From Rhizobium mayense (GTDB lineage: Bacteria; Pseudomonadota; Alphaproteobacteria; Rhizobiales; Rhizobiaceae), in the NCBI RefSeq assembly GCF_030272705.1, contig NZ_JARFYM010000003.1:248001-312000 (forward strand): a stretch of DNA of 64,000 bases, given 5' to 3'. A program made the position numbers and the translations under genes. The notes beneath the pieces are model-generated. The model was given only the letters and a program-made list of their open reading frames with translations, ran no database searches and had not been told where the DNA came from. The first letter of the stretch is position 1; each line of letters opens with the position of its first letter. Shown in pieces: positions 1,811 to 3,484 of the stretch.

Positions 1811-3484
1811 ATGGGTAGCGCGGCAGGCATCATCGGCTTCTTGACGAACAACGTCATCACGTTTGTTTTCGTGCTGTCATTGCTCGTCTTTGTACATGAG
1901 ATGGGCCATTATCTGGTCGGGCGTTGGTCCGGCATCCGTATCATGGCCTTTTCGCTCGGATTCGGTCCGGAAATCGCCGGCTTTACCGATCGCCATGGCA
2001 CCCGCTGGAAACTGTCGATCATTCCCCTTGGCGGTTATGTCCGTTTCTTTGGCGATGAGGACGCATCGAGCAAGACCGATGTCGATCAACTCTCCGCTAT
2101 GACGGAGGAGGAGCGCGCCCGGTCCTTCGCCGGTGCCAAGCTCTGGAAGCGGGCCGCGACCGTCGCGGCCGGTCCGATCGCCAATTTCATTCTCGCCATC
2201 GCAATCTTTGCCGTGCTCTTCAGCGTCTATGGCCGCACGGTCGCCGATCCGGTTGTCGCCATGGTCACGCGCGACGGCGCAGCCGCTGAAGCGGGGATTG
2301 AACCCGGTGACCGACTCGTCGCCATCGACGGCACGAAAGTGACGACTTTCGACGAAGTGCAGCGCTATGTCGGTCTGCGGCCCGGCCGCAATATCGTGCT
2401 GACCGTCGAACGCGACGGTCAGAAGCGCGATTTCGGTATTGTGCCGAAACTCGTGGAAGACACCGATCAGTTCGGCAACAAAATGGAGATGGGCCGCATT
2501 GGTATCGCGCTCGTCGACCCGTTGGTGACGGCGGTCGCGCCGAGTGGACCGGCTGCCCAGGCGGGCGTGCAGGCCGGCGACCGTCTGATTGCCGTCGACG
2601 GCAATAATGTCGCGACCTACTACGACATCGCCCGCTATATCGCCGATCGCCCCGGCAAGAGCCTTGTCTTGACCGTCGAGCGCAACGGCCAGTCGCGCGA
2701 TATCCCGATCGTGCCGGAAACCCGGGCAGCAACGGACGCTTCCGGAAACAAAAAGGATGTCGGTAGCATCGGCATTTCGCCGGTGGACCCGCTAGTCGCT
2801 TCGATCGCGCCGGGCAGCCCGGCCGAAGAAGCGGGTATCATGATTGGCGACCGCATTCTGTCCGTGGATGGGCGGGCGATCGAGGCCATCGGTGAGGTGC
2901 AGCGTTATGTCGCGTCCCGTACGGACAAGGCCGTGACGCTGTCCGTCGAGCGCGGCGGCAAGACGCTCGACGTCCAGGTGGTGCCGAGGAAGGCGGAAGA
3001 ACCCGATGCCTTCGGCAAGCAGATGGAGATCAGCAGCATCGGTATCACCGACGGCCAGAAGCCGATCAAACTCCGTTATGAGACATACGGTCCGCTCCAG
3101 GCGCTGGGCGAAGGCGTCAAGCAGACCGGCAGTATTGTTTCCGGCACCTTCGAATACCTTGGCAACGTCATCGGCGGCTATATGAAAGCGGATCAGCTTG
3201 GAGGCCCTATCCGGGTCGCACAGCTTTCCGGGCAGATGGCAACCTTGGGTTTTTCGGCGGTGCTGCAGTTCGCCGCCATACTTTCTGTTTCCATTGGGTT
3301 ATTAAATTTGATGCCGGTGCCGGTACTTGATGGCGGGCACTTGATGTTCTATGCGATTGAAGCCGTAAGGGGAAAACCGCTGGGTGCGCGGGCACAGGAT
3401 ATCGCCTTCCGAATTGGTTTTGCGATGGTGCTGTCACTCATGGTGTTTGCGACATGGAACGACATCAGCTCCAGGATAGGCTGA
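1811..3484 (+). CDS. rseP: RIP metalloprotease RseP with three PDZ units
   Basis: Intramembrane site-2 zinc protease of 557 aa. The zinc motif HEMGH is at residues 29-33 in the first membrane helix, and the second metal-ligand motif (MPVPVLDGGHL) lies near the C-terminus. RseP cleaves anti-sigma factors and leftover signal peptides. Unusually, residues 144-233, 234-323 and 324-413 are three consecutive 90-aa PDZ units, each running from a (V/A)DP(V/L)V start through GDR..(A/S).DG to a closing IGI. By my count units 1 and 2 share about 50% identity, and units 2 and 3 about 41%. E. coli RseP (about 450 aa) has two PDZ domains, and from general knowledge most alphaproteobacterial forms (about 375 aa) have one. 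Position between cdsA and bamA is standard. Confidence 0.95.
   Translation: MGSAAGIIGFLTNNVITFVFVLSLLVFVHEMGHYLVGRWSGIRIMAFSLGFGPEIAGFTDRHGTRWKLSIIPLGGYVRFFGDEDASSKTDVDQLSAMTEEERARSFAGAKLWKRAATVAAGPIANFILAIAIFAVLFSVYGRTVADPVVAMVTRDGAAAEAGIEPGDRLVAIDGTKVTTFDEVQRYVGLRPGRNIVLTVERDGQKRDFGIVPKLVEDTDQFGNKMEMGRIGIALVDPLVTAVAPSGPAAQAGVQAGDRLIAVDGNNVATYYDIARYIADRPGKSLVLTVERNGQSRDIPIVPETRAATDASGNKKDVGSIGISPVDPLVASIAPGSPAEEAGIMIGDRILSVDGRAIEAIGEVQRYVASRTDKAVTLSVERGGKTLDVQVVPRKAEEPDAFGKQMEISSIGITDGQKPIKLRYETYGPLQALGEGVKQTGSIVSGTFEYLGNVIGGYMKADQLGGPIRVAQLSGQMATLGFSAVLQFAAILSVSIGLLNLMPVPVLDGGHLMFYAIEAVRGKPLGARAQDIAFRIGFAMVLSLMVFATWNDISSRIG
2240..3049 (+). repeat. Three tandem 270-bp PDZ-coding units within rseP
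   Basis: Units at 2240-2509, 2510-2779 and 2780-3049 each encode exactly 90 residues with no gap or extra residue between them. Conserved anchors in all three are DP, AG, GDR, DG, RY, VER, VP, D, G and IGI. The exact length match and phase indicate internal tandem duplication followed by divergence. Confidence 0.9.

Follow-up and report, generated by a model that had tools for sequence, protein, structure and literature searches.

In Escherichia coli RseP, a Group I site-2 protease, the PDZ tandem forms, according to passages of PMC7728848, a size-exclusion filter that the PCT-H1 helix (residues 323–349) connects with the protease. Passages of PMC10202637 and PMC7593790 also describe the RseP PDZ tandem as a filter, and the PDZ domains of site-1 proteases are described as signal sensors in PMC7593790. 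As far as these passages show, the role of PDZ number in substrate choice by site-2 proteases is not settled. We describe here an rseP gene of Rhizobium mayense that encodes three PDZ units in tandem, together with the distribution, probable origin and possible function of this form.

The rseP gene and its neighbourhood

The window (the whole stretch of DNA analysed, 64,000 nucleotides) contains an ORF at positions 1811–3484 of the + strand, with an ATG start and no internal stops, which was assigned by family and equivalog matches as rseP; its product is a Group I site-2 protease of 557 aa that contains three PDZ units. The deduced protein matches the Peptidase_M50 and PDZ families and scores 368.5 bits with TIGR00054 (RseP), for which the cut-off is 147.55 bits, bearing out the identification as RseP in a first-pass annotation made from the sequence alone. 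The cut-off of NF008046, which covers the Escherichia-type RseP (sigma E protease regulator), was not reached (332 vs 477 bits). The nearest solved structures by sequence are the RseP proteins of E. coli, Kangiella and Aquifex.

Both catalytic motifs are present: the zinc/catalytic motif HEMGH (residues 29–33; positions 1895–1909, + strand), with H29, E30, G32 and H33 invariant in 69/69 aligned sequences, and NLMPVPVLDG (residues 499–508; positions 3305–3334, + strand), with N499, P502, P504, L506, D507 and G508 invariant across the same 69 sequences. In M50B proteases the HExxH and LDG zinc motifs belong to membrane helices, and the structural model described below has predicted helices at residues 2–39 and 481–499; the three PDZ units sit between predicted helices 111–140 and 428–455/481–499, corresponding to the PDZ position between TMH2 and TMH3. 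A search of the genome found this ORF to be the only full-length RseP, the three other matches each being limited to PDZ ranges. The protein is an ordinary single-copy housekeeping RseP with its catalytic motifs intact.

Genes near rseP were named by family match as uppS, bamA, lpxD, fabZ and lpxA. The gene between uppS and rseP (positions 947–1783) gave no NCBIfam match at 1e-40 and is cdsA-like by motif and place, carrying an HGG..DR.D motif which we take to be of the CdsA type. Since an RseP gene adjoining cdsA, uppS and bamA has been described previously (in passages of PMC6411480), the neighbourhood can be regarded as ordinary.

Three tandem PDZ units of 90 residues

Residues 144–413 consist of three gapless 90-residue units, namely unit 1 (residues 144–233; positions 2240–2509), unit 2 (residues 234–323; positions 2510–2779) and unit 3 (residues 324–413; positions 2780–3049), all on the + strand. 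The numbers of identical residues, out of 90, are 45 between units 1 and 2, 38 between units 1 and 3, and 37 between units 2 and 3; the corresponding DNA identities, out of 270 bases, are 170, 161 and 158. With 200 shuffled versions of the protein, no 90-residue window compared at offset 90 exceeded 17 identities, and in the real protein offsets from 80 to 99 other than 90 gave 12 identities at most. This self-alignment confirms the first-pass description of three gapless 90-residue units at residues 144–413, and the identities agree with its estimates of about 50% for units 1 and 2 and about 41% for units 2 and 3. A PDZ domain search found that each unit scanned alone exceeds the Pfam gathering score for PDZ_6 (cut-off 27 bits), with 52.3 bits for unit 1, 58.6 bits for unit 2 and 57.9 bits for unit 3.

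An AlphaFold2 model of the full protein, built from an alignment of 69 rows (pLDDT 84.9, pTM 0.75), gave the same succession of strands and helices in all three units and placed them between a helix ending at residue 140 and a helix starting at residue 428. Prediction for residues 143–415 by themselves, with no alignment supplied, was of poor quality (pLDDT 53). The predicted helix following unit 3 (residues 428–455; positions 3092–3175, + strand) corresponds in position to PCT-H1 of E. coli RseP, and the protein from residue 424 onward aligns with E. coli RseP from residue 319 onward. E. coli RseP (7w6x) was the top structural match both with Foldseek (E = 2.6e-37) and with VIA-align (Z = 33.1, rmsd 9.0 Å over 428 residues), and isolated RseP PDZ domains matched at about 1.5–2.3 Å rmsd with these programs. 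Since the overall rmsd to 7w6x was 9.0 Å and none of the VIA matches listed was confined to unit 3, it is uncertain how the units are arranged above the membrane.

Distribution of the three-PDZ form

In Rhizobium, the genus of the window, the three-PDZ form was found in 41/148 genomes, including one (G110) in which it is split over two contigs; the RseP frames of the other 107/148 genomes, whose PDZ number was taken from frame length, are 302–402 aa, too short for two units. RseP relatives were sampled within Pseudomonadota (249 genomes at the phylum level). Of 485 relatives the best 80 loci were counted by profile, 11 of them having three units and the other 69 one. The records of these 11 loci (L001–L010 and L057, with L009 cut by a contig end and classed from its match range alone) are labelled R. 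tropici, R. freirei, R. rhizogenes, R. calliandrae, unnamed Rhizobium strains, two "Rhizobiales bacterium" isolates and one metagenome bin. In a family-level sample of 394 genomes, four Rhizobium genomes were the only ones with the form among the matches listed, and in this sample and that of 397 order-level genomes none of the matches listed placed it outside Rhizobium. The expectation of the first-pass annotation that near relatives have one PDZ domain is upheld by the 69 single loci and by the single-PDZ rows L020 and L024, which are sisters to the three-PDZ clade (see below); a prevalence of three units in Rhizobiaceae, which would have spoken against the novelty it proposed, was not found, either in the 148 Rhizobium genomes or among the family-level matches listed.

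From a first set of loci 147 RseP proteins were extracted, of which 51 have three units, 85 have one and 11 have two. The 51 three-PDZ loci, many of which represent the same genome in two collections, encode proteins of 557 aa (49 loci) or 555 aa (2 loci, L090 and L153, from the same genome, G029), and 39 distinct 557-aa proteins remain. As the form is shared by 39 distinct proteins, an assembly or frameshift artefact could be ruled out.

Several individual frames are worth noting. The match of the 555-aa protein (L090/L153, G029:C1) to the window protein ends at residue 522, and its C-terminus is unlike those of the other three-PDZ proteins; it was left out of the unit identities, core tree, omega and motif counts. 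A 302-aa RseP frame (L152, G036:C1:3479800–3481900), from one of the 107 short-form genomes, which is listed as complete, is devoid of the C-terminal LDG motif; either the gene is broken or the sequence contains an error. Nine long frames considered as hidden three-PDZ forms (a 555-aa frame in G149, and those in G363, G373, G320, G335, G607, G760, G650 and G866) each proved to have one PDZ domain, their surplus length presumably being open frame upstream of the start. As a check for diverged three-PDZ forms, 30 family- and order-level genomes with one listed match were chosen by hand; 29 proteins were extracted (all except L183), 28 with one PDZ domain and one (L176) with two. Within open-licence PubMed Central papers, no description of an RseP with three PDZ domains was found, and no paper was found for Rhizobium tropici with RseP or for "three PDZ" with "site-2 protease".

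Origin of the repeat

A core tree was constructed from the RseP cores and CdsA, with the units left out, for 31 three-PDZ and 69 single-PDZ rows (quick LG model, rooted on L080, long rows flagged). In this 100-row tree the three-PDZ form is one clade with a single change of state (SH-aLRT 100), within which no single-PDZ row falls, and the nearest rows outside it are L020 and L024, both with one PDZ domain. The commonest length of the single-PDZ RseP is 377 aa, and 377 + 180 = 557.

Trees of the individual PDZ units, as proposed in the first-pass annotation, grouped units 1, 2 and 3 together against the single PDZ domains, with support of 100/100 in the trees containing 25 and 21 singles and of 99 in a quick tree containing 35. 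These trees are based on 90 columns; the bootstrap of the 25-singles tree had not converged, the tool warned for the quick tree that the long branches of units 2 and 3 meet, and a wider unit tree separated the units from four Rhizobiaceae singles at 96/56 only. Given the 100/100 grouping, it is most likely that one ancestral PDZ domain was tandemly duplicated to three inside this Rhizobium clade.

Unit 1 is the ancestral-like copy, and units 2 and 3 have diverged faster. Mean identity to the single PDZ domains is 58% for unit 1, 46% for unit 2 and 37% for unit 3, and identity between orthologous units is 0.907, 0.793 and 0.719, respectively. Unit 1 adjoins the singles in the drawn unit trees (the quick and 21-singles trees); it forms one group in the quick tree (support 73) but not in the 25- and 21-singles trees (two changes each). 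Units 2 and 3 each form one group across species in all three unit trees, so there was no sign of gene conversion among the units. As to the order of the two duplications, the best tree joins units 2 and 3 (98/91), but the alternative joining units 1 and 2 was not rejected (p-AU 0.217).

The distance between the units had led the first-pass annotation to state that the duplication is not recent, and one could suppose that it predates the clade, the single-PDZ Rhizobium lineages having lost two units. AU tests did not reject trees in which unit 1 was held with the near singles (cost 19.3 lnL, p-AU 0.083) or with the two sister singles (cost 12.5 lnL, p-AU 0.117). However, an older duplication sits badly with the 100/100 grouping of the three units, and with 107/148 Rhizobium genomes carrying the short form and the sister rows being single it would need repeated exact losses; we consider it improbable. 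As the 100/100 grouping and the single-PDZ sister rows indicate, a duplication within the clade followed by rapid divergence accounts better for the low identity between the units, and the statement that the duplication is not recent is probably wrong.

Selection and possible function of the additional units

Omega was estimated by the Nei-Gojobori method, with pairs of dS outside 0.15–2 dropped (731–739 of 741 three-PDZ pairs and 72–77 of 78 single-PDZ pairs were used). Mean omega for the 39 distinct three-PDZ genes was 0.034 in the N-terminal core, 0.063 in unit 1, 0.157 in unit 2, 0.194 in unit 3 and 0.045 in the C-terminal core, and that for the PDZ domain of 13 near single-PDZ genes was 0.118. 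All units are under purifying selection, with units 2 and 3 less constrained than unit 1; their higher omega is as compatible with a relaxation of constraint as with a new role.

We propose, with a probability of roughly 70%, that the window protein is a housekeeping RseP whose PDZ region expanded to three units within the clade and whose extra units most likely tune substrate discrimination, leaving catalysis unchanged. The single ancestral periplasmic PDZ domain would have expanded in tandem to three 90-residue units within the Rhizobium clade, all three probably on the periplasmic side, over the active site. By analogy with the E. coli enzyme, the two extra units would most likely enlarge or reshape the size-exclusion filter, or add peptide-binding surface, so that the choice of substrate would be tuned and the catalytic reaction would stay the same. 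An altered substrate filter is plausible on these grounds.

The rise of omega from unit 1 to unit 3 could also be read as a near-neutral expansion, in which the extra PDZ domains are tolerated spacers that leave substrate choice unaltered, their fold being maintained only to avoid the harm that misfolding of a periplasmic insert would do. The parallel drop in identity between orthologous units is in keeping with such an expansion, as is the replacement in unit 2 of the Phe at unit position 78, a residue present in 62/62 single PDZ domains counted. Yet omega is far below 1, the 39 distinct proteins all retain three units with no indels, and the 100-row core tree has no reversion to a single PDZ domain inside the clade, all of which indicate constraint, although function is not proven thereby. 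A near-neutral expansion is on balance unlikely, if still a serious alternative to tuned substrate discrimination.

Each unit also contains the tripeptide IGI, at residues 230–232 in unit 1 (positions 2498–2506), 320–322 in unit 2 (positions 2768–2776) and 410–412 in unit 3 (positions 3038–3046), all on the + strand. I322 of unit 2, which has the same repeat position as the IGI of unit 1, is aligned with I304 of E. coli RseP, and the structure of the E. coli I304A mutant (3id3) is among the VIA matches listed. The IGI strand presumably has a part in ligand binding. In the 39 distinct three-PDZ proteins the I, G and I residues are conserved in 39, 39 and 39 cases in unit 1, in 37, 39 and 39 in unit 2, and in 39, 39 and 36 in unit 3. 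Moreover, at 8 sites in unit 2 and 7 in unit 3 a residue differing from that fixed in unit 1 has become fixed (≥95%). These features are what one would expect if units 2 and 3 were peptide-binding sensors, which would bind C-termini (e.g. of misfolded outer-membrane proteins or of the site-1 protease product) and open the protease, a role resembling the signal sensing ascribed to site-1 protease PDZ domains in the passages of PMC7593790. For RseP itself, however, the passages of PMC7728848, PMC10202637 and PMC7593790 describe the PDZ tandem as a filter, and we regard a sensor role of units 2 and 3 as decidedly doubtful. A bolder version, which seems very improbable, is that the extra PDZ domains made RseP itself sense envelope peptides, rather than act as a filter awaiting the site-1 protease; if true, envelope-stress signalling or symbiosis-related substrates would be gated in this clade unlike in other rhizobia.

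Comparison with other RseP proteins

The window protein shares with E. coli RseP (Group I S2P, 7w6x), its best structural match, the HExxH and LDG motifs, periplasmic PDZ domains that follow the second core helix and precede the third, and a helix in the place of PCT-H1, which is predicted here. It differs in having three 90-residue repeats in tandem where E. coli RseP has two PDZ domains (as described in passages of PMC7728848) and, unlike the E. coli-type RseP, it falls below the NF008046 equivalog cut-off.

The single-PDZ RseP proteins of other Rhizobium and Rhizobiaceae have the same motifs at the same place, six of them (L011, L013, L017, L020, L024 and L025) being 75–77% identical to the window protein, but they contain one PDZ domain, from which the two additional ones of the three-PDZ clade most likely derive. 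A single genus thus offers the enzyme in natural forms with one and with three PDZ domains, about 75–77% identical, so that the size-exclusion model could be put to a direct test by deleting or exchanging domains.

Two-PDZ RseP proteins were found at 12 other loci of Hyphomicrobiales belonging to six family codes (L120–L122, L124–L130, L132 and L176). Their extra PDZ domain is at the same position as those of the three-PDZ form, but they have two units, not three. A unit tree was constructed for 8 of the first 11 of these loci (L126–L128 were left out). Away from the three-PDZ clade, the L121 copies are each other's sisters (100/89) and the copies of L122 and L130 come together (94/82), which fits separate gains. 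The second unit of L120 groups with the copies of L125 and L129 (94/94), whereas the first unit of L120 is placed elsewhere, with the first unit of L124 (89/84); since the two units of L120 lie apart, a private duplication in this locus does not fit. The tree gives no settled placement for the copies of L124 and L132. On these placements, the number of PDZ domains appears to have increased repeatedly in the order, although some of the two-PDZ loci might instead have an old pair that evolved in concert. Further natural replicates may come from those other families of the order in which RseP has two PDZ domains.

The first-pass annotation had called the three-PDZ protein the clearest architectural novelty in the window. 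The expansion is real and inherited, but the claim was overstated, as the PDZ number of Group I site-2 proteases has already been described as variable; the three-PDZ RseP is accordingly best viewed as one clade's own variant within a known family of proteases.
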